DNA of 64,000 nucleotides from an uncultured Oscillospiraceae bacterium (GTDB taxonomy: Bacteria; Bacillota; Clostridia; Oscillospirales; Ruminococcaceae). Under the pieces are notes generated by a model. It searched no databases and was not told the DNA's origin. It saw only the letters and a list, made by a program, of their open reading frames with translations. Both the position numbers and the translations under genes were made by a program. Positions 8,451 through 33,571 of the stretch are shown piece by piece. Position 1 is the first letter of the stretch; every line of letters begins with the position of its first letter. The stretch is taken from assembly GCA_949285935.1 (NCBI GenBank), contig CASEAH010000082.1, positions 39,828-103,827 of the forward strand, in the 5' to 3' direction.

Positions 8451-8990
8451 TCATTCCACGTAGCTTTCGCCCAAAGCGATCGCTTTCATGTTCAGCGCCA
8501 CCAGCTCAGGTTTGCTGGGAGGAACGCACTTTTCCACCGCTGCGGTTACTGATTCCATGGAGGTAAATCCCGTAGCTTTCAGCAGGCCGCCCAGCATGAT
8601 GAGGTTGGCCAGTTTGGGGATTCCGTTTTCCTGAGCCAGCTTGGTGGCCGGGGTATAGACAGCGGTAATGTCCTGCCGGTCCGTCCGGTCCTCCACCAGA
8701 GAGCTGTCGATGACGGCTACGCCCCCGGGCTGCACAGTTCCGATAAATTTGTCATAGGAAGGCTTGTTCATCACCACAATGGCGTCCGGCTGAAGTACCA
8801 GAGGAGACCCAATGGGGGTATCAGACAGGCAGACACTGCAGTTGGCAGTGCCGCCCCGCATTTCGGGACCATAGGAGGGCAGCCAGGAAACCTCCCGGTT
8901 GTCTACCAGACCTGTATAGGCCACTACCTTGCCAGTGAAAAGGATGCCTTGTCCGCCAAATCCGGCAAAGACAAAATTCCAGTTTTTCAT
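8451..8990 (-). CDS. 2-oxoacid:ferredoxin oxidoreductase, gamma subunit
   Basis: Residues 8-17 (VFAGFGGQGI) and the segment SWLPSYGPEMRGGTANCSV are signatures of the gamma domain that contacts the CoA/thiamine chemistry of anaerobic 2-oxoacid oxidoreductases. At 179 residues the length fits. It is the last gene of a delta-alpha-beta-gamma operon and its ATG overlaps the beta stop by one base. With the other subunits it decarboxylates a 2-oxoacid to an acyl-CoA, reducing ferredoxin, or runs in reverse. The substrate (2-oxoglutarate or branched-chain 2-oxoacids; Kor or Vor) cannot be fixed from sequence. Confidence 0.93.
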   Translation of the reverse strand: MKNWNFVFAGFGGQGILFTGKVVAYTGLVDNREVSWLPSYGPEMRGGTANCSVCLSDTPIGSPLVLQPDAIVVMNKPSYDKFIGTVQPGGVAVIDSSLVEDRTDRQDITAVYTPATKLAQENGIPKLANLIMLGGLLKATGFTSMESVTAAVEKCVPPSKPELVALNMKAIALGESYVE

Positions 8991-9742
8991 CAGTAGACCC
9001 CCTCTGCAGTTTTATCCTTGTAGACGCCCAGAGGATAATAAGGGATCATGTTGGTACGCAGCCAATCCAGTGCCTCTACCGGCGTCAGGCCCCAGTTGGT
9101 GGGGCAGGTGGAAAGAACCTCCACGATGGAAAAGCCCTTCTTTTCAATCTGCGCGGTAAAGGCTTTTTTGATAGCTGCCTTTGCCTTGCGGATGTTGGGG
9201 ATGCTCTCCACCGTTACCCGCTCGGCATAAGCCACGCCGTCCAGGGTAGAAAGCATCTCGCAGATGCGCACGGGATAACCCGCGGCGTGAGGATCACGGC
9301 CATAGGGGGAGGTCTGGGTCACCTGTCCGGGCATGGTGGTGGGAGCCATCTGGCCGCCGGTCATGCCGTAAATGGCGTTGTTGACAAAGATGATGGTAAT
9401 ATTTTCTCCCCGGGTAGCGGCGTGGACCGTCTCTGCGGTACCGATGGCTGCCAGATCGCCGTCTCCCTGGTAGGTAAACACCACATTTTGCGGATGGACC
9501 CGCTTGATGCCGGTAGCCACGGCGGGCGCCCGTCCATGAGGAGCCTCCACCATATCACAGGCGAAGTAATCGTAGGCCATAACCGCACAGCCAACGGGGG
9601 CCACACCGATGGTCTGTCCTTCCACGCCCAGTTCTTCAATCACCTCTGCCACCAGCTTATGGATGATGCCATGGGTGCAGCCAGGGCAGTAATGCAGAGG
9701 CGCATCGGTAAGCATTTTGGATTTCTGATAAACAACAGCCAT
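8990..9742 (-). CDS. 2-oxoacid:ferredoxin oxidoreductase, beta (TPP-binding) subunit
   Basis: This 250-residue subunit binds thiamine pyrophosphate. The N-terminal HYCPGCTHG and the segment YQGDGDLAAIGTAE followed by NNAIYGMTGGQ are the standard TPP/Mg2+ motif of the family. The sequence between them (APVGCAVMAYDYF) is typical of KorB/VorA proteins. It overlaps the alpha stop by one base and the gamma start by one base, so translation is tightly coupled. In catalysis it holds the TPP ylid that attacks the 2-oxoacid. Confidence 0.94.
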   Translation of the reverse strand: MAVVYQKSKMLTDAPLHYCPGCTHGIIHKLVAEVIEELGVEGQTIGVAPVGCAVMAYDYFACDMVEAPHGRAPAVATGIKRVHPQNVVFTYQGDGDLAAIGTAETVHAATRGENITIIFVNNAIYGMTGGQMAPTTMPGQVTQTSPYGRDPHAAGYPVRICEMLSTLDGVAYAERVTVESIPNIRKAKAAIKKAFTAQIEKKGFSIVEVLSTCPTNWGLTPVEALDWLRTNMIPYYPLGVYKDKTAEGVY

Positions 9743-10806
9743 TATTTCGCACCTCCTGCCATTTCTTTCAGCTTGGCCGCCACGTCCTGCGGGGTGGGGA
9801 CCATACCGCCGGTACGCCCGTAGAATTCCACGGGCACCCGTCCGTTGACCACCAGGCGGACGTCATCCACCATCTGACCCATGCTCATCTCCACCGACAG
9901 GAAGCCCTTGGCCTGAGCGGTACGGCGGTCAATGATGTCCTTGGGGAAGGGCCACAGGGTAATGGGCCGGATCAGGCCCGCCTTGATGCCCTCTGCCCGT
10001 GCCAGATCCACAGCGGACTTGGCAATACGGGAAGAAGCGCCAAAAGCGGTGATAAAGTATTCTGCGTCGTCGCAGCAGTATTCATCATACCGCTGCTCCG
10101 CAGCCTCGGCCTGGCGGTACCGCTCAAACCGCTCCAGCACCTTGGCTTCCAGTTCCTCAGGCTTGAGGTACAGGGAGTTGACAATGTTATGGGGACGCTT
10201 GTTCTGATGGCCGGTAAGAGCCCAGGGCTTTTCGCTGGGCTTCACTTCCGAGGCCTCCGGGAAGGACACCGGCTCCATCATCTGTCCCAGCAGACCATCG
10301 GAAAGGATCATGGCGGGCATACGGTATTTTTCTGCCAGATCATAGGCGGTAAAGACCATATTCACCAGTTCCTGTACCGTGCTGGGGGCAAAGACCAGAA
10401 CAAAAAAGTCACCGTGGCCCAGAGCCCGGGTCGCCTGCCAGTAATCGGACTGAGAGGGCTGGATGCCGCCCAGTCCGGGGCCGCCCCGGGAGACGTTGAT
10501 AATCAAACAGGGCAGATCGCTGCCCGCTATGTAGGAGATGCCCTCCGTCTTCAGGGAAATCCCCGGAGAGGAAGAAGATGTAAGCACCCGGGCGCCGGCC
10601 GAAGCCGCCCCCAGGACCATATTGATAGCCGCTACCTCAGATTCTGCCTGCAGGTAGGTTCCGCCGATCTTGGGCATCTTCTTGGACATGTAGGCGGCCA
10701 GCTCCGTCTGGGGTGTAATAGGATATCCGAAGAAATGACGGCAGCCAGCCCGGATCGCAGCTTCCGCCAGGGCTTCGTTTCCTTTCATCAAAACTCTGTC
10801 TGTCAT
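9742..10806 (-). CDS. 2-oxoacid:ferredoxin oxidoreductase, alpha subunit (VorB/KorA type)
   Basis: The N-terminal motif KGNEALAEAAIRAGCRHFFGYPITPQ is the pyrimidine-binding domain signature of KorA/VorB alpha subunits. GGPGLGGIQPSQSDY and the C-terminal transketolase-like domain follow. The frame is open 19 codons further upstream, but the ATG at 10806 (MTDRVLMKG) has GAGGAA at a good distance and avoids a long overlap with the ferredoxin gene. Length is 354 residues. Sequences of this type in Clostridia are usually annotated as 3-methyl-2-oxobutanoate (branched-chain) oxidoreductase, but also as 2-oxoglutarate oxidoreductase. Confidence 0.94.
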   Translation of the reverse strand: MTDRVLMKGNEALAEAAIRAGCRHFFGYPITPQTELAAYMSKKMPKIGGTYLQAESEVAAINMVLGAASAGARVLTSSSSPGISLKTEGISYIAGSDLPCLIINVSRGGPGLGGIQPSQSDYWQATRALGHGDFFVLVFAPSTVQELVNMVFTAYDLAEKYRMPAMILSDGLLGQMMEPVSFPEASEVKPSEKPWALTGHQNKRPHNIVNSLYLKPEELEAKVLERFERYRQAEAAEQRYDEYCCDDAEYFITAFGASSRIAKSAVDLARAEGIKAGLIRPITLWPFPKDIIDRRTAQAKGFLSVEMSMGQMVDDVRLVVNGRVPVEFYGRTGGMVPTPQDVAAKLKEMAGGAK

Positions 10807-10817
10807 GATACGATTCC

Positions 10818-11024
10818 TCACTTTTCTACCGTAATTGCGCTGTCGGGGCACATAATGCCGCACATGGCACAGCCGATACAGCTGCCCTCATCTGTCAGAA
10901 CCGCGGGATTATATCCCTTGGCGTTGATGCGGGTGGTATCCAGCTTCAGGATCTTTTTGGGGCAGACGTGTACGCACAGCCCACAGCCCTTGCAGACCTT
11001 CTCGTCAATAATCGCCTTGGCCAT
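10818..11024 (-). CDS. 2-oxoacid:ferredoxin oxidoreductase, delta subunit (2x[4Fe-4S])
   Basis: This is a 68-residue bacterial-type ferredoxin subunit. It holds two CxxCxxCxxxCP motifs, CKGCGLCVHVCP and CIGCAMCGIMCP, which coordinate two 4Fe-4S clusters that pass electrons from the TPP site to soluble ferredoxin. The ATG at 11024 is preferred to an in-frame GTG at 11039 because GAGGG lies 8 bases upstream of the ATG and would be inside the GTG form. It starts the four-gene oxidoreductase block, 11 bases before the alpha subunit. Confidence 0.93.
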   Translation of the reverse strand: MAKAIIDEKVCKGCGLCVHVCPKKILKLDTTRINAKGYNPAVLTDEGSCIGCAMCGIMCPDSAITVEK

Positions 11025-11084: not shown

Positions 11085-11756
11085 TTACTGCTCCCAGGGA
11101 GTCTTGACAAACACATCCACCGGAAAGACCGGCTGAGGGAGCTCCCCTGCCAAATCCCTGCGGATGCTGGTACACAAAATGGGAACGCCTGTGGCACGGG
11201 AGACTTTCTCCAGGTACGCCATGGAACCTTTTACCAGTTCCCCGGTCGTTTCCCGGCCCAGGTTGGTGTTGTTGACCAGGTAGGAAACTTTCAGCCGGGA
11301 GGCAGCTTCCACACTGCGCAGAAGAGCTGTCTCTTCCTCCACCTCTTCTTCCAGATACCGGCAGCGGTTGACTACATACAGCAGGGTATATCCAGCCTGC
11401 TCCATCGCGCCTGCATAGCCGCCCAGAGCCACAGCCCCCGCGTCATCTCCGCCCACGTCGATCAGGACCGTCTGCTCCGGGTCCTGAATGGCCGCTCCCA
11501 GCACGGGAGGCAGCACCGGAATATCCAGGTTGGTATTGGCATACTGGGGGCAAACCAGCCGGATCCCATGCTCCGCCATCAGCTGCCCAAAATCCGCTGT
11601 GCGGAAATAAGGGTTGACGATATCCAAATCGGAAACGGTAACCTTTTTTCCCTGCCGGGCCAGTTCCAGAGCCAGGTTGACGGAAAAATTGGTCTTGCCG
11701 CTGCCGTAATGCCCGCAGACAGCAATGATCCGCTTCAGCTTCACACTCAAATCCAT
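11085..11756 (-). CDS. P-loop ATPase of the MinD/ParA-like class, upstream of oxidoreductase
   Basis: The deviant Walker A motif CGHYGSGKTNFSVNLAL at the N-terminus and DIVNPYFRTADF and VLIDVGGDDAG further on place this among MinD/ParA/CobQ-like ATPases. The exact role is unknown. The first in-frame ATG (11795) overlaps the promoter -10 box and therefore cannot be on the transcript with a leader; the ATG at 11756 (MDLSVKLKRII) follows AAAGGAA and is used, giving 223 residues. The gap to the ferredoxin subunit is 60 bases with no terminator, so it probably heads the oxidoreductase operon and may help assemble or regulate the enzyme. That link is inference. Confidence 0.85.
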   Translation of the reverse strand: MDLSVKLKRIIAVCGHYGSGKTNFSVNLALELARQGKKVTVSDLDIVNPYFRTADFGQLMAEHGIRLVCPQYANTNLDIPVLPPVLGAAIQDPEQTVLIDVGGDDAGAVALGGYAGAMEQAGYTLLYVVNRCRYLEEEVEEETALLRSVEAASRLKVSYLVNNTNLGRETTGELVKGSMAYLEKVSRATGVPILCTSIRRDLAGELPQPVFPVDVFVKTPWEQ

Positions 11757-19658: not shown

Positions 19659-20477
19659 TCAGCTCTCCAGCTGATCCATCAGATATTCCATGTAATTAAC
19701 ATAATGGTAAAATACGATCCCCGGCTCCTGAAGTTCCTGGTTCCACCGTTTGACCCATTCCAGAGTGATAAAGCCCTGATAGCCGCTGTCGCTAAGGACC
19801 TTAAGGGCATCGAAAACCGGCACGTCTCCGTAGCCCATCATCCGGTAAACCACCTTGCCCTCATGCATCACTGAATCTTTTACATGGGTATATTTGATCC
19901 GTTCTCCAATGTTGGCAAAGGTTTCTTCGGGGCTCTCTCCATAGAAACGATAGGGATGATGAATATCCCACAGCACGCCGCTTCCTGCAGGATTTGCACC
20001 GGCGATAAATTCCTTCATCCGGGCAGAATCCGCCAGCAGGCCATTGGTTTCAATCAAAACGCAGGTACCTTTGGAAGCTGCATAATCACACAGCTCCAGA
20101 TACAATTCCCGGGCCTGATTCAGGTCAGCTTCCACCGGCCCCGCCGAAAAAGTAATCATCACCCGCACAAAGGGAACTCCGATCCGGGCAGCCAGGTCGA
20201 TATAGTCCCGTGCCTCTCTCATGCCGTTTTCCCGGCTGTCGGGCATCCCCAGAGCCGCTCCGGAGGTCAGGGCTGCAAACTCCATCCCCGCAGACTCCAT
20301 CCGTTTAAGGGTGGCCGCAGCATTCTGTTCGCTGAAAATCCGGATCTTGGGGGCGTACATTTCATTCTCCATCCCCCGGATCTCAATACCGTCAATCCGC
20401 ATATCCTTGGCAGTAGCAAAAATTTCATCCCAACTCCAGCTGGGGCACCCCAAGGTGGAAAAAGCCAATTTCATCAT
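19659..20477 (-). CDS. sugar phosphate isomerase/epimerase (TIM-barrel, AP_endonuc_2 family)
   Basis: The protein matches the xylose-isomerase-like TIM barrel family: N-terminal KLAFSTLGCPSWSWDEIFATAK, then GIEIRG, the metal-binding Glu of LIETNG (about 150), DIHHPYR (about 180), HVKDS (about 215) and the final FITLEWVKRW. These residues would bind a divalent metal. The substrate is unknown. Length is 272 residues. The ATG at 20477 is doubled (ATGATG) and the ribosome site is weak. It is the third gene of the acyl-CoA ligase operon, 38 bases after the pseudokinase. Confidence 0.88.
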   Translation of the reverse strand: MMKLAFSTLGCPSWSWDEIFATAKDMRIDGIEIRGMENEMYAPKIRIFSEQNAAATLKRMESAGMEFAALTSGAALGMPDSRENGMREARDYIDLAARIGVPFVRVMITFSAGPVEADLNQARELYLELCDYAASKGTCVLIETNGLLADSARMKEFIAGANPAGSGVLWDIHHPYRFYGESPEETFANIGERIKYTHVKDSVMHEGKVVYRMMGYGDVPVFDALKVLSDSGYQGFITLEWVKRWNQELQEPGIVFYHYVNYMEYLMDQLES

Positions 20478-20515: not shown

Positions 20516-22114
20516 CTATTCCTCCGGCTGATCCTCGGGGGCTTTTTTGACCGTAATGGTCACCTTTTCTGTGTCAAAATATTCTTTGGAAATACGGTCG
20601 CCCATACCCTTGTTCATGGCGATCACCGTTCCCTCTACACCTTCCGTTTCGGGATCATAATCGTATTCTACATCAAAGGGCATCCCCAGTTCTGCCAGAA
20701 GCTTTCTGGCATACAGCTCAGAGCATCCTATGAGATACGGAACATCCACATAGGCAGAGCCCTTGCTGACAATGACCCCTACTGTCATACTGTCCGGCAG
20801 CGTCTGCCCCGGCTGTACCGATTGTTCCATGATTACTCCCGCAGGGACCGTTTCGCTGTACCGCTCCTCCCGCACCTCCAGAAAAAGCCCGTAGTCAGCC
20901 TGACGGCTCTGGGCGGCAGAAAGAAGCATCCCGGTCAGGTCATATTCCATCACCTGGGAAACGGATTCTTCCATCTGGCTGGTTTCTTCCTCTTCCGGCA
21001 GTTGGGAAGACATAGAAACCATAGCAGCTGTCAGAATCAAATTCAGAATGATGCTGACTGCCAGAGCCAACATCAGGATGTTTTTACTGTCTTTCCAGAA
21101 TGCATGGGGCTTTGGAGCAGCTACCGATGCAGGTTCCGGGCGGAACACAGCGGTATTAGAACCAGTCTCCTCCAACAAGGCCGCGGTAAACTGATCCACC
21201 GACTGGAAGCGGTCCTTTTTGGCCGGCTCCATAGCCTGCGCAACCGCAAGGGACACATGAGGCGGAACCTGTGGGCAAAGGGTGGCTACCGATTCCATGG
21301 GCACCTTGCTTCGCTGGGGTGCAGATGGCGGGTCCATCTGCGTCAGGGTTCGGTACAGCACCGCACCCAGAGAATAAATATCAGTCCATTCGCCCTGAAA
21401 AAGGTTTTTGGAATACTGCTCCGGGGCACTGTACCCCGCAAACAGCTGCGGATCGACACCGCTGCCCTCCGTGCGCAGTTCCGGCAGAGAAAAACTGGTC
21501 AGGAATGCCCTGCCTTTTGCATCCACCAAAATGGTTTCAGGCGAAATTCCTCCATGGATCATCCCTTTGTTGTGGAGGTTGGAAACCAGAGAAAAAAGCG
21601 GCATCAGCAGAGTTTTGGCCGCGGGCCAGTCCAAGCCGCCTTTGGCCTCAAGGTAATCCTTCAAAGAAACTCCGCTCACAAAAGACTCCACACAGTACAG
21701 CGTCTCATGGACCGCAAGGATCTCTCTGATTTTGGGCAGACAGCGGTTATCCATTTTGGCAAGACGCTTCCATCGATCCGCCATATCGGAAAGCATGGTT
21801 TTATACCGTGCCAGATCTTTTTCTTCCACCCACAGGCTCTGTCCGTCCTCTGAACGTACCGCCATCTGCCGGGGCATGAATTCTTCGATCCAAACCCTGC
21901 GGCTTTTGGCAATGTCCAGTCCGATGTATGAACAGATAAGGCTGTTCCGTCCAAGCATCCGTCCCACCAGATACCGCTGATCCAGAACCGTTCCGGCCGG
22001 CAGCGCTCCCCGGGGATTGGATTCATCGCTTCGACGGCCGCAAAGCGGGCACTGGTCCTGGTCCTTGGCCATAGGCGACATGCAGCCCATGCAAAGCTTG
22101 CTGTTCTTGTCCAA
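20516..22114 (-). CDS. zinc-ribbon pseudokinase with C-terminal PASTA domains
   Basis: The layout resembles a PknB-type receptor kinase: an N-terminal zinc ribbon (CxxC at 11/14 and 25/28, numbering from a GTG at 22123), a kinase-like domain (about 50-315), one membrane helix (347-369) and about two extracellular PASTA-like repeats (395-530). Key catalytic residues are missing. The HRDLKPEN loop reads HGGISPETI at 190-198, the DFG motif reads SFS at 210-212, and the ATP-binding Lys is Glu80. The APE-type SAPEQY and the WTDIYSLGAVLY helix remain. It should therefore fold but not phosphorylate. PASTA repeats bind muropeptides or lipid II in related proteins. The start is TTG at 22114 with GGGAG eight bases upstream; the GTG at 22123 is too close to that site. 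Second gene of the T-box operon. Confidence 0.9.
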   Translation of the reverse strand: MDKNSKLCMGCMSPMAKDQDQCPLCGRRSDESNPRGALPAGTVLDQRYLVGRMLGRNSLICSYIGLDIAKSRRVWIEEFMPRQMAVRSEDGQSLWVEEKDLARYKTMLSDMADRWKRLAKMDNRCLPKIREILAVHETLYCVESFVSGVSLKDYLEAKGGLDWPAAKTLLMPLFSLVSNLHNKGMIHGGISPETILVDAKGRAFLTSFSLPELRTEGSGVDPQLFAGYSAPEQYSKNLFQGEWTDIYSLGAVLYRTLTQMDPPSAPQRSKVPMESVATLCPQVPPHVSLAVAQAMEPAKKDRFQSVDQFTAALLEETGSNTAVFRPEPASVAAPKPHAFWKDSKNILMLALAVSIILNLILTAAMVSMSSQLPEEEETSQMEESVSQVMEYDLTGMLLSAAQSRQADYGLFLEVREERYSETVPAGVIMEQSVQPGQTLPDSMTVGVIVSKGSAYVDVPYLIGCSELYARKLLAELGMPFDVEYDYDPETEGVEGTVIAMNKGMGDRISKEYFDTEKVTITVKKAPEDQPEE

Positions 22115-22144: not shown

Positions 22145-23800
22145 TCAGGCAGTTTCGACGGAATCATCCAGATGGTAGTGTTCAACAGCCCATTCCCGCA
22201 GGCGGAATTTCTGGATCTTGCCGCTGGCAGTCATGGGAAACGCATCCATAAAAGCTACATATTTGGGCACCTTATGGCGCGCCATATGAGCCTTCACGCT
22301 GGCTTTGATGTCCTCCTCCGTACAGGAGCCGGGCTCCTTGAGGATGACGCAGGCCATCACTTCCTCCCCATACTGTTTGCTGGGGACACCGATGACCTGT
22401 ACATCCTGAACCTGCGGGAGGGTATAGATGAAGTCCTCGATCTCCTTGGGATAAATATTCTCTCCACCCCGGATGATCATGTCTTTGATTCTTCCGGTAA
22501 TCTTATAATACCCGTTTTCATCCACCGTTGCAAGGTCTCCGGAATGGAGCCAGCCCTCTTCGTCAATTACCTGCCGGGTAGCCTCCTCCATTTTATAGTA
22601 TCCCTTCATGGTATTGTATCCCCGGGAGCAAAACTCTCCAGGCTGTCCCGGCCCCAGGGTCTCCCCCGTTTCCGGATCCACAATCTTGGTTTCCACAAAG
22701 GGCATGGACTTGCCTACGGTAGTGACCCGGACTTCCAGGCTGTCCTCTGTGGTGGTCATGGTGGTAGCGGGAGATGCCTCAGTCTGGCCGTAGGTGATGG
22801 TGATCTCCCGCATATTCATCTTTTCCACCACCGCGCGCATCACTTTGATGGGGCAGGGCGATCCGGCCATAATCCCAGTGCGAAGGCTGGAAAAATCATA
22901 CTGTTCAAAATCCGGATGCTCCAGCATGGCAATATACATGGTGGGTACGCCATGGAACGCGGTACACCTTTCACTCTGGATGGCCTGCATGACTTTCAGG
23001 GGGGAGTACAGGTCTACCGGAACCATGGAGGTGGCGTGCGTAAGGCAGGCCATCATGGCCAGCACCAGGCCAAAGCAGTGGAAAAAAGGTACCACAATGC
23101 ACAGCTTATCCTCTTCGGTAAATTTCATGCAGTCGCCGATGCTCTTCCCATTGTTGACAATATTATAATGGGTCAGCATCACGCCTTTGGGAAAACCCGT
23201 GGTCCCCGAGGTGTACTGCATATTCACCACATCCTGGGGATCCAGGGATTCGGTCAGTTCCCGGTACAGCTGATGGTCGATTTTCTCTCCGTCTTTTTCC
23301 AGCTGCTTCCAGGCAGTCATTCCCTCCGGGCACTCACCTGCACCGGCATACACCACTTCCTCCAGGAAAGGCAGCATGGGATTAAGTTTTTGTCCAAATT
23401 TACCCAGACCCCGGCAAAGTTCCCGGACGATCCCCACATAATCGGTGTCTTTCCAGCGGTCGATCATCACCAGCATTCGGGTATCCGATTGACGCAGCAG
23501 ATATTCCAACTCAAAAATCTTGTACGCTGTGTTTACCGTCACCAGAACCGCTCCGATTTTGCAGCACGCAAACAGGGTGAGCATCCATTCCGGTACATTG
23601 GTGGCCCATATAGCCACCTTGTCGCCCCGTTTGACACCGTGGGCCAGCAAGCCTTTGGCGATTCGGTCTACTTCCTGGTCAAACTCTTTCCAGGTCCTCC
23701 GGTAATCCCGGTCGGTATATTTGACGGCCTCCCTGTCCGGGAATCTTGCCGCCACCTGTTCCAGCAGCTTTCCCACGGTAATCGACATCAACTGTTCCAT
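22145..23800 (-). CDS. AMP-binding acyl-CoA synthetase/ligase
   Basis: The enzyme activates a carboxylic acid with ATP to an acyl-adenylate and then to acyl-CoA. ANL-family motifs are in order: YTSGTTGFPKGV (P-loop), YGQTEASPAT, HSGDLATVDENGYYKITGRIKDMIIRGG (hinge) and the catalytic Lys of ASGKIQKFRLRE near the C-terminus. Overall similarity is to medium/short-chain fatty acid CoA ligases of the FadD/AcsF2 type. The ATG at 23800 (MEQLMSITVG) follows AAAGGAG. Length is 551 residues. It is the first gene behind a leucine-type T-box leader, unusual for this family. The next gene starts 30 bases after its stop. Confidence 0.93.
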   Translation of the reverse strand: MEQLMSITVGKLLEQVAARFPDREAVKYTDRDYRRTWKEFDQEVDRIAKGLLAHGVKRGDKVAIWATNVPEWMLTLFACCKIGAVLVTVNTAYKIFELEYLLRQSDTRMLVMIDRWKDTDYVGIVRELCRGLGKFGQKLNPMLPFLEEVVYAGAGECPEGMTAWKQLEKDGEKIDHQLYRELTESLDPQDVVNMQYTSGTTGFPKGVMLTHYNIVNNGKSIGDCMKFTEEDKLCIVVPFFHCFGLVLAMMACLTHATSMVPVDLYSPLKVMQAIQSERCTAFHGVPTMYIAMLEHPDFEQYDFSSLRTGIMAGSPCPIKVMRAVVEKMNMREITITYGQTEASPATTMTTTEDSLEVRVTTVGKSMPFVETKIVDPETGETLGPGQPGEFCSRGYNTMKGYYKMEEATRQVIDEEGWLHSGDLATVDENGYYKITGRIKDMIIRGGENIYPKEIEDFIYTLPQVQDVQVIGVPSKQYGEEVMACVILKEPGSCTEEDIKASVKAHMARHKVPKYVAFMDAFPMTASGKIQKFRLREWAVEHYHLDDSVETA

Positions 23801-23883: not shown

Positions 23884-23924
23884 AAAAAAGGCCTTCGTCC
23901 CCTGTCTGACAGAAGACGAAAGCC
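23884..23924 (-). terminator. T-box-controlled terminator
   Basis: GGCTTTCGTC pairs with GACGAAGGCC (10 bp with one G-T) around a 15-base loop, followed by six T. Its 5' arm lies just after the T-box sequence, the expected competition with the antiterminator. Confidence 0.9.
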
Positions 23925-24153
23925 TATGCTTCCGCGGTACCACTTCGTTTGACGGCAAAAGCCGCCCACTCATGCCATGTCTAACAACACAGCCTCCCGT
24001 TAACGCTGGAGATGCGTTCAAGCCTACTTTATTTCGGTTGACCACTCAGGAGCGAGTTCGACTGCTTTCTGCCTGCCGCGTTGCAGCAACCCGCGGCTCT
24101 CTGGAAGGCATCCGGCGACTACTACTCTCCGTCAACGTGTTATGCGGTTATTG
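23884..24153 (-). ncRNA. T-box leader (leucine specifier) upstream of acyl-CoA ligase operon
   Basis: All parts of a T-box riboswitch are present on the minus strand. Stem I has GGAGAGTAG on its 5' side and CCAGAGAG with the GGTTGCTGCAA apical motif. The specifier loop reads GAACTCGCTCCTGAG, giving CTC (Leu) at 24056-24054, aligned by the GAA before it and the CTGAG after it. The T-box sequence AGTGGTACCGCGG (TGGTACCGCGG at 23942-23932) has TGGT, which would pair with tRNA ending in ACCA; tRNA-Leu has discriminator A. A competing terminator follows. Uncharged tRNA-Leu should allow transcription of the operon. Confidence 0.93.
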
Positions 24154-24159
24154 TTCTAT

Positions 24160-24188
24160 AATATAGCAATGTCCTGAGGCTTTGTCAA
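24160..24188 (-). promoter_or_regulatory. sigma-A promoter of T-box operon
   Basis: A perfect TTGACA (24188-24183) and TATATT (24165-24160) are 17 bases apart. The start point is predicted near 24153. It abuts the 3' end of the upstream sugar kinase gene. Confidence 0.88.
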
Positions 24189-30064: not shown

Positions 30065-30094
30065 TTGCTAAACTATATGAAAATATACTATAAT
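30065..30094 (+). promoter_or_regulatory. sigma-A promoter of asnS
   Basis: TTGCTA (30065-30070) and a perfect TATAAT (30089-30094) are separated by 18 bases, about 40 bases upstream of the asnS start. Confidence 0.78.
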
Positions 30095-30136
30095 ATCTGT
30101 AATTGCATTGACAACAAAAGAAAGAAGGAAATGAAA

Positions 30137-31530
30137 ATGCATCGAACCGAAATAAAGGCCCTTTTCGCCGGTGTCACCAATTATATCGATTCCGAAGTGA
30201 CCGTGGCCGGCTGGGTCAAGACCATCCGGGATTCCAAGGCCCTGGGCTTCATTGAGCTTAACGATGGCAGCTGCTTCCGGAACCTTCAGGTGGTTTTTGA
30301 AGCCAGCAAGCTGGAGAATTTTTCCGCTATTGCCAAGCAGAATGTGGGCGCAGCCCTGGTGGTGCGGGCAACGTGGTTTTAACTCCCAATGCCAAGCAGC
30401 CCTTTGAGGTTCATGCGACCTCCATTGAGGTGGAGGGCCCTTCCTCTCCTGATTATCCTCTTCAGAAAAAACGTCACACCATGGAATATCTTCGTACCAT
30501 TCAGCATCTGCGGCCCCGTACCAATACCTTCAGCGCCGTATACCGGGTACGTTCCGTAGCGGCGTACGCCATCCATAAGTTCTTTAATGACCGGGGATTT
30601 GTCTACGCCCATACCCCCATTATTACCTGCAGCGACTGTGAGGGCGCTGGAGAGATGTTCCATCTTACCACCCTGGATCTGGAGAATCCTCCCCGCACCC
30701 CGGACGGCAAGGTGGATTATACGCAGGACTTTTTCGGCAAATCCGCCAATCTGACTGTTTCCGGTCAGCTTCAGGCAGAATGCATGGCTCTGGCCTTCTC
30801 CAAGGTATATACCTTCGGTCCCACCTTCCGGGCCGAAAAATCCAATACCCCCCGGCATGCTGCTGAGTTCTGGATGATCGAGCCGGAAATCGCCTTTGCT
30901 GATCTGGAAGACGATATGCAGCTCGCCTCCGATATGATCAAGTTTGTTTTGAAATATGTGATGGATAACTGCCCCGATGAGCTGGCTTTCTTTAATAACT
31001 TCTACGACAAAAATCTGTTGGAACGTCTGACCAATGTGGTGGAATCGGATTTTGGCCGTGTCAGCTACACCGAAGCCATTGAGATCCTGGAAAAAGTAAA
31101 AGACCGCTTTGAATATCCCGTCTATTGGGGCTGTGACCTTCAGACGGAGCATGAACGGTATCTGACCGAAGAAGTATTCGGCAAGCCTGTTTTTGTCACG
31201 GATTATCCCAAAGAGATCAAAGCTTTCTATATGCGTCTCAACGACGACGGCAAAACCGTGGCGGCCGTAGACCTCCTGGTCCCCGGTGTGGGAGAGATCA
31301 TCGGCGGTTCCCAGCGTGAGGAACGCCTGGAACTCCTTGCCCAGCGTATTCAGGAAATGGGGCTTACCGAAGAGGATTACTGGTGGTATCTGGATCTGCG
31401 CCGTTTTGGCGGTAACAAGCATGCCGGTTACGGCCTGGGCTTCGAGCGCCTGATTATGTATATGACCGGCGTTTCCAACATCCGGGACGTTCTTCCCTTC
31501 CCCCGCACCACTGGTTCTGCAGAGTTTTAA
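30137..31530 (+). pseudogene. asnS: asparaginyl-tRNA synthetase, interrupted by a single-base frameshift
   Basis: AsnRS charges tRNA-Asn with asparagine. The first 80 codons (MHRTEIKALFAGVTNYIDSE, OB-fold anticodon-binding domain) are in one frame and end at a stop at 30382. The rest, from [17 protein letters not shown] through the class II motifs ([22 protein letters not shown] and [12 protein letters not shown]), continues in the +1 frame to 31530. Adding one G to the GGG at 30366-30368 restores the expected [11 protein letters not shown] and a 464-residue enzyme, the family length. The rest shows no decay, so the change is recent, or is a sequencing or assembly error in a homopolymer. The start is ATG 30137 with AAGGA upstream. 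Confidence 0.93.
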
Positions 31531-32764: not shown

Positions 32765-33571
32765 ATGCTGATTGACTTCCATACTCATGTCTTTCCCGAC
32801 GCCCTTGCTCCACGAACTATTTCCAAACTGGCGGAAATCTCTGAATGCTTGCCTCAGAGCGATGGCACGGTGGCGGGATTGCTTGCAAAAATGAATCAAT
32901 GGGGTGTGGATATGGCAGTCACTCTCCATATCGCCACCAAGCCAGGGCAGCAGACCAATGTCAACAACTTTGCCGCCTCTATTCAGGGGGAACGTCTGCT
33001 TTCCTTCGGGTCCATCCATCCCGACGCCCCGGACGCCTTACAGGAGCTGGAGCGTATCAAAGCTCTGGGGCTGCATGGTGTCAAACTTCATCCTGATTAT
33101 CAGGACTTTTTTGTGGATGAGTCCCGCCTCTTCCCTCTTTATAGCAGGATGGCTGAGCTGAAACTTCCCCTGGTTCTCCATTGCGGCTGGGATCCTTTTT
33201 CCCCTTCGCTGACCCACTGCCCTCCTCACCGCCTGGCCATGGTACTGAAAGCCTTCCCGGAACTGGTGGTGATCGGTGCCCACCTGGGAGGAATGAACCA
33301 GTATGACGAGGCGGAACGCTGCCTGGCCGGACGCTATCCCAATCTGTATATGGATCTGTCCATGTCACCCCGATATTGCTCTGATCCTGCCCAGTTTCTC
33401 CGCATCATCCGCGCTCAGGGAGCCGACCATGTTCTTTTCGGCACCGACTGTCCTTGGGGCAGCGGCCATGAAACTCTTACTTATCTCCGGTCAGCCGGTT
33501 TAACTTCTTCTGAAGAAAAACAGATCCTCTTCCAAAATGCCTGCCGGTTGTTGGGCATCTCTCCCCGGTAA
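32765..33571 (+). CDS. amidohydrolase-family (Amidohydro_2) metal-dependent hydrolase
   Basis: The N-terminal DFHTHVFP motif, HGVKLHPDYQDF, LVLHCGW (about 140), VIGAHLGG (about 172) and FGTDCPWG (about 222) mark an Amidohydrolase_2/TatD-like TIM barrel with metal-binding His and Asp residues. The family includes decarboxylases and lactonases; the substrate is unknown. The ATG at 32765 follows AGAGG by eight bases. Length is 268 residues. No functional partner lies nearby. Confidence 0.9.
   Translation: MLIDFHTHVFPDALAPRTISKLAEISECLPQSDGTVAGLLAKMNQWGVDMAVTLHIATKPGQQTNVNNFAASIQGERLLSFGSIHPDAPDALQELERIKALGLHGVKLHPDYQDFFVDESRLFPLYSRMAELKLPLVLHCGWDPFSPSLTHCPPHRLAMVLKAFPELVVIGAHLGGMNQYDEAERCLAGRYPNLYMDLSMSPRYCSDPAQFLRIIRAQGADHVLFGTDCPWGSGHETLTYLRSAGLTSSEEKQILFQNACRLLGISPR

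Follow-up and report, generated by a model that had tools for sequence, protein, structure and literature searches.

The 64,000-nucleotide stretch of DNA analysed here (the window), from an uncultured Oscillospiraceae bacterium, carries a complete leucine T-box leader in front of a gene for an AMP-forming acyl-CoA ligase. Comparison with related genomes indicates that this unit is probably part of a tRNA-gated system for making leucine, isoleucine and valine from isovalerate, 2-methylbutyrate and isobutyrate, by acyl-CoA ligases, reductive carboxylation by 2-ketoisovalerate:ferredoxin oxidoreductase (VOR) and transamination. The leader and its codon, the gene content, the conservation, co-occurrence and clustering of the genes and the three matching T-boxes were observed directly. 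The first-pass annotation of this DNA had suggested that cells short of leucine may respond by activating a branched-chain acid, isovalerate for example. This suggestion gained support from the comparison, and a Leu specifier was found in the 54 readable leaders among 55 in front of the ligase.

Anatomy and codon of the T-box leader

The leader is composed of three elements, all on the minus strand.

24160 to 24188, minus strand: sigma-A type promoter, TTGACA-17-TATATT, read directly from the sequence
23909 to 24144, minus strand: T-box leader with Leu specifier CUC (24056-24054) and T-box sequence TGGTACCGCGG (23942-23932); RF00230, 123.6 bits, reading register tested on further T-boxes of this genome
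23884 to 23924, minus strand: intrinsic terminator, a hairpin of -25.5 kcal/mol followed by T6, from fold and sequence

A complete T-box with consensus promoter, specifier loop, T-box sequence and terminator had been described in the first-pass annotation, with Rfam scoring proposed as a check, and all of these elements were found in their places. The Rfam T-box model RF00230 matched over its whole length at 24144-23909 of the minus strand with 123.6 bits (E 6.3e-27), above the gathering score of 93 bits. This was the top score among the 11 T-boxes that Rfam detected in the own genome (2.44 Mb, 110 contigs, 89% complete). Direct reading placed the -35 box TTGACA at 24188-24183 and the -10 box TATATT at 24165-24160 with a spacer of 17 nt. 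By fold, the 5' arm of the terminator is predicted to be common to the antiterminator/T-box helix.

The specifier loop reads directly as GAA-CUC-G. The codon was assigned by a register in which it is followed by 6 nt and GAG, and by eye this register fits seven further T-boxes of the genome, giving in each the codon expected from the gene behind it. These genes, assigned by recognition, are presumably tyrS, pheS, valS, alaS, thrS and trp- and met-type transporters. The first choice of the automatic specifier reader was wrong for the pheS and met-type leaders, and the cysS leader was unreadable. The Leu specifier claimed earlier was thus confirmed as CUC. A codon one base off (UCG, Ser) was ruled out, since the register that is correct for the other leaders gives CUC. 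A single pattern search of the 89% complete genome found tRNA-Leu genes with anticodons CAG, TAG and TAA, all ending in A-CCA, and none with GAG.

Genes under the leader

Three genes follow the leader on the same strand.

22145 to 23800, minus strand: AMP-forming acyl-CoA ligase, 551 aa, proposed isovalerate:CoA ligase; Pfam AMP-binding and AMP-binding_C, NF009233 with 774.9 bits
20516 to 22114 (22114/22123 in the Pfam result), minus strand: zinc-ribbon/pseudokinase/PASTA protein; Pfam kinase domain and PASTA, motifs by eye
19659 to 20477, minus strand: xylose-isomerase-like TIM barrel; Pfam

Pfam agrees with the gene content given in the first-pass annotation, and with starts at 22114 and 20477 the genes are separated by 30 and 38 bases, as stated there. 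No synthetase or classical leucine gene lies directly downstream of the leader, as had been noted. The ligase starts with ATG at 23800 and, at 774.9 bits, does not reach the cut-off of 832 bits of NF009233, a fatty acid CoA ligase family. The ligase superfamily serves other acids too. In the second protein the kinase catalytic motifs are missing by eye, HGG standing in place of HRD and SFS in place of DFG, which bears out the label of pseudokinase; the protein probably has a regulatory role.

Conservation of ligase and T-box across 198 genomes

To the own genome were added relatives from its genus, family and order, giving a set of 198 genomes. At E 1e-150 or better the ligase is present in 90 of them, the own genome included. 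The T-box core GTGGNACC[AG]CG was sought in up to 4.2 kb of DNA upstream of all 90 ligases and heads the ligase unit in 55. The same motif occurred in only 8 of 1800 letter-shuffled stretches of 2.5 kb, so 55 of 90 is not due to chance. The core is lacking in the other 35, in some of which the contig stops too near the ligase. The counts per arrangement are therefore lower bounds: 21 of 22 where the ligase is followed by the pseudokinase (22 of the 90 ligase genomes), 15 of 21 where a LeuA-like gene precedes a TIM-ligase fusion, 10 of 27 for the plain TIM-ligase fusion (17 without), 9 of 16 for the ligase alone and 0 of 4 for the ligase followed by the TIM barrel. As an independent check, Rfam was run on 24 loci other than the own one, and 13 proved to have a T-box ahead of the ligase unit; the flanks of these loci, at most 1.5 kb, are too short for the LeuA-like arrangement.

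Among the 55 ligase leaders, the automatic reader gave CUC in 37 and CUG in 12. In its last form it returned a non-Leu codon or no codon for the remaining 6. Five of these were read as Leu by eye, clear enough in G010, G051 and G095 and weak in G096 and G145, and one (G102) is truncated by the contig end. A quick tree of the ligases, built without bootstrap, separated an unfused group of 42 from a fused group of 48 with full SH-aLRT support, and T-boxes are present in both.

These data bear on the possibility, also raised in the first-pass annotation, that the leader is the displaced T-box of a lost leucine gene such as leuS or leuA and was inherited by new neighbours, with the ligase as a bystander. 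Two kinds of arrangement favour it. In Desulfotruncus arcticus and D. alcoholivorax (L172, L181) a Leu T-box, a relative of the ligase and leuS (identified by eye) follow each other in one direction, and of 21 more distant genomes, 15 have a LeuA-like gene between the T-box and the fused ligase. Against this, 21 of the 22 genomes that share the arrangement of the window, ligase plus pseudokinase, have kept the T-box, and across several arrangements the gene that recurs under it is the ligase. The 54 readable leaders carry Leu codons across the deep split of the ligase tree, and parallel units exist for isoleucine and valine. In close relatives neither a non-Leu specifier, nor an intervening leucine gene, nor loss of the leader from most of those that keep the operon was found. 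A relic leader is set aside as the main explanation by its retention in the 21 of 22 genomes, and is extremely improbable overall.

The LeuA-like proteins encoded upstream of the TIM-ligase fusions were read for motifs in five of the 21 cases.

L056, 10465 to 11853 (also in L058, L059, L060 and L061): LeuA-like protein, upstream of TIM-ligase fusions; motif reading

All five are degenerate: they lack the aspartate of RDG and have no intact HxHND motif, but keep the C-terminal leucine domain. This combination of lost catalytic motifs and a retained leucine-binding domain suggests that they may act as leucine sensors. Just upstream of the LeuA-like/TIM-ligase unit of L059 (5185-6946), a phenylacetate-CoA-ligase-like gene and an ACT-domain-like protein were seen by eye, which may represent an aromatic counterpart. 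Outside the Firmicutes, relatives of the ligase lie beside XRE regulators in L185 (Methanosarcinaceae) and L187 (Bacteroidales), where no T-box core was seen. The Methanosarcinaceae contig L185 holds the ligase, XRE, VOR and an MbcS-like gene together.

The classical leucine route

The ligase and LeuB tend to exclude each other. Both are present in 30 of the 198 genomes, the ligase only in 60, LeuB only in 80 and neither in 28 (p 1.3e-8), so that LeuB is over its cut-off in 30 of 90 ligase genomes as against 80 of 108 genomes without the ligase. When labels were shuffled within families, the own genus being kept as a separate group, the observed overlap of 29 was below the expected 41.6 and none of 5000 shuffles reached it. 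LeuB is found in none of the 21 genomes with the LeuA-like gene and fusion and in 2 of 22 with ligase and pseudokinase, compared to 17 of 27 with the plain fusion, 7 of 16 with the ligase alone and 4 of 4 with ligase and TIM barrel. Among the ligase genomes, 11 of the 55 that have a T-box core contain it, compared with 19 of the 35 that lack one. As LeuB is scarcer in the arrangements and genomes with a T-box, these show the strongest tie to loss of the classical route.

In the own genome (89% complete), LeuB gave only a sub-threshold match (194 bits, cut-off 353), and no match to the aconitase-family model PF00330, sought for LeuC, was found. The leuA and cimA genes of this genome are over their cut-offs, which is odd without leuBCD. 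The two genes are adjacent on contig C48 of G000 (L070, 9050-12143).

The TIM barrel

At E 1e-12 or better the TIM barrel is present in 93 of the 198 genomes. It occurs together with the ligase in 83 of 90 ligase genomes, in several of them on separate contigs. In 48 of the 90 the ligase carries a relative of this TIM barrel as an N-terminal fusion. The structure model is confident (mean pLDDT 96). Foldseek and PDB profile searches led to sugar epimerases and isomerases, IolI/IolE-like proteins and AsbF, and so point to no substrate. By analogy with the fold family, residues E143, D171, H198 and E240 are presumed to be metal ligands; these positions are kept in 26 of 28 aligned TIM barrels and partly lost in L176 and L179.

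The isovalerate chemistry proposed here leaves no place for a TIM-barrel isomerase, which counts against it. The acid could instead be another leucine-pathway acid, made or modified by the TIM barrel, in which case ligase and TIM barrel would form a different or longer new leucine route. The joint occurrence in 83 ligase genomes, even on separate contigs, the 48 fusions and the preserved metal-ligand positions in 26 of 28 members all speak for such a route, while the loss of some of these positions in L176 and L179 and the failure to find the TIM barrel in 7 of 90 ligase genomes, at least two of them less than 80% complete, speak against it. On balance another acid appears unlikely, and isovalerate is kept as the most likely substrate.

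Isoleucine and valine units

The own genome contains two further T-boxes in front of acyl-CoA ligases. On contig C102 an Ile (AUC) T-box is followed by an XRE-type regulator gene and a ligase that, among NCBIfam models, scores best with MbcS. The other T-box, on contig C26, is of Val type (GUA, 113.2 bits) and precedes a second MbcS-like ligase of 547 aa, which is 51% identical to the Ile ligase and 27% identical to the Leu ligase of the window. With 496 bits for the Ile and 406 bits for the Val ligase, the curated MbcS cut-off of 850 (NF047394) is not reached, and therefore both are named MbcS-like only.

MbcS-like genes were found in 130 of the 198 genomes. T-boxes were scanned in 53 loci, consisting of the 30 best MbcS-like loci, 20 picked from the tables of ligase, VOR and MbcS-like genes and 3 earlier ones. 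The scan gave 41 T-boxes before XRE genes, of which 33 specify Ile (31 according to the automatic reader and 2 by eye), 7 specify Val and 1 is unclear; the last is L252, where the automatic Val read was doubtful. Six clusters with two copies (L060, L259, L260, L263, L265 and L266) have Ile on one copy and Val on the other. In L060, L061, L260 and L263 the XRE domain and the MbcS-like ligase form a single protein of about 750-765 aa, possibly a fusion of regulator and enzyme.

According to PMC10026030, MbcS of S. aureus activates 2-methylbutyrate and isobutyrate, and isovalerate poorly. This fits Ile and Val T-boxes on MbcS-like genes and a separate ligase for Leu. MbcS is also the NCBIfam model that scores best for both of these T-box ligases. 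The S. aureus enzyme feeds membrane lipids, and the Leu ligase of the window belongs to a different branch.

VOR and the three-T-box clusters

Genes for VOR are located in the window itself.

11085 to 11756, minus strand: P-loop protein ahead of VOR, as in the clusters of G159 and G160; position and comparison
10818 to 11024, minus strand: VOR delta (ferredoxin-type) subunit; PorD/KorD-type matches below cut-off
9742 to 10806, minus strand: VorB, 2-ketoisovalerate:ferredoxin oxidoreductase alpha; NF005507, 543 bits, cut-off 399
8990 to 9742, minus strand: VorA, TPP-binding beta subunit; 2-oxoacid:acceptor beta-family matches below cut-off
8451 to 8990, minus strand: VOR gamma subunit; gamma-family matches below cut-off

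The VOR genes (8451-11024) start 8.6 kb beyond the isomerase gene and share its strand. Genes on both strands lie in between, so the two groups are not one operon. Across the 198 genomes, 79 have both ligase and VOR, 11 the ligase only, 33 VOR only and 75 neither. The distance of VOR from the window ligase and its presence in 33 genomes without the ligase weigh against the proposed route. The window VorB is over its NCBIfam cut-off, whereas the other subunits stay below theirs. VOR-type enzymes elsewhere work oxidatively, while the carboxylating direction is proposed here.

Some genomes have the ligase gene in one cluster with those for VOR and a branched-chain aminotransferase. The G159 cluster (L263) runs on one strand in the order Leu T-box, LeuA-like gene, TIM-ligase, Ile T-box, XRE-MbcS, Val T-box, XRE-MbcS, ilvE, P-loop protein, VOR delta, alpha, beta and gamma, and amidohydrolase. 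G160 (L260) has the same gene set in a different order; in both, the delta, gamma, P-loop and amidohydrolase genes were named by eye. Rfam found all six T-boxes of the two clusters at E 2e-13 or better, three of them over the gathering score. G137 (L259) has three T-boxes and VOR, and no ilvE was seen in its cluster. IlvE is over its cut-off in the G050 cluster and is a tblastn match in other clusters. The window VorB and P-loop protein are 64% and 39% identical to their G159 counterparts. On the plus strand of the window, an amidohydrolase-like protein recognized by eye (32765-33571) is 37% identical to the one that ends the G159 cluster, and an asparaginyl-tRNA synthetase-like frame, also recognized by eye (30077-31530), is split into two overlapping frames by an assembly error or a real break.

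The ligase might alternatively supply isovaleryl-CoA as a primer for branched-chain membrane lipids when leucine, from which these usually derive, is short, with no leucine being made. VOR could run towards the acyl-CoA, and T-boxes usually serve tRNA charging, the one point favouring and the other disfavouring such a role. The enrichment of the ligase in genomes without LeuB, and the clusters that unite it with ilvE and VOR and contain Leu, Ile and Val T-boxes, also argue against it. MbcS of S. aureus does provide a precedent for 2-methylbutyrate and isobutyrate (PMC10026030). Taken together, a role restricted to lipids seems quite improbable.

Proposed mechanism and relation to known systems

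Activation of isovalerate for leucine synthesis is favoured by the over-representation of the ligase in genomes without LeuB, its clusters with VOR and aminotransferase, and the Ile and Val T-boxes before MbcS-like ligases in the own genome. In the proposed mechanism, uncharged tRNA-Leu would allow the antiterminator to form and the AMP-forming ligase to be made. The ligase would convert its substrate, most likely isovalerate, to isovaleryl-CoA, from which VOR, with CO2 and reduced ferredoxin, would form 2-ketoisocaproate by reductive carboxylation. A branched-chain aminotransferase would then yield leucine. Similarly, 2-methylbutyrate would lead to isoleucine through the MbcS-like ligase under the Ile T-box, and isobutyrate to valine through the one under the Val T-box. 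The substrates, the direction of VOR, the flux, induction by starvation and the parts of the TIM barrel and pseudokinase are predictions of this scheme. A bolder version, which we put forward tentatively and hold to be rather doubtful, is a carbon-fixing system that would make the three amino acids from branched short-chain acids of the gut through three tRNA-gated channels, each having one T-box and one ligase and all using one VOR, in which degenerate enzymes, namely the LeuA-like protein and, in the genus of the window, the PASTA pseudokinase, would be sensors that gate the ligase with the TIM barrel.

Rumen bacteria reportedly synthesize leucine by carboxylation of isovalerate (Allison and co-workers, 1962 and 1966). 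The route from isovalerate to leucine is old knowledge (PMC7356843). Carboxylation and amination of isovalerate are common to that pathway and the present proposal, while a gene for the activating step, a tRNA-controlled switch and sister units for isoleucine and valine are proposed here. The leader itself shares with known T-box riboswitches (RF00230) the whole-model match, specifier, T-box sequence, antiterminator/terminator and promoter, but it heads an acyl-CoA ligase unit, whereas T-boxes normally control synthetase, classical biosynthesis and transport genes. An acyl-CoA ligase as T-box target was not found in the literature searched: the terms 'CoA ligase', 'acyl-CoA' and 'fatty acid' are absent from the main text of the T-box survey PMC2494555, and 'CoA ligase' and 'acyl-CoA' from PMC3766115.

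The T-boxes would thus gain a regulatory target, the acyl-CoA ligase, for which no example was found in that literature. Candidate genes can be named for the activation step on the way to each of leucine, isoleucine and valine, and these may allow prediction of which uncultured gut bacteria need branched acids given off by others.
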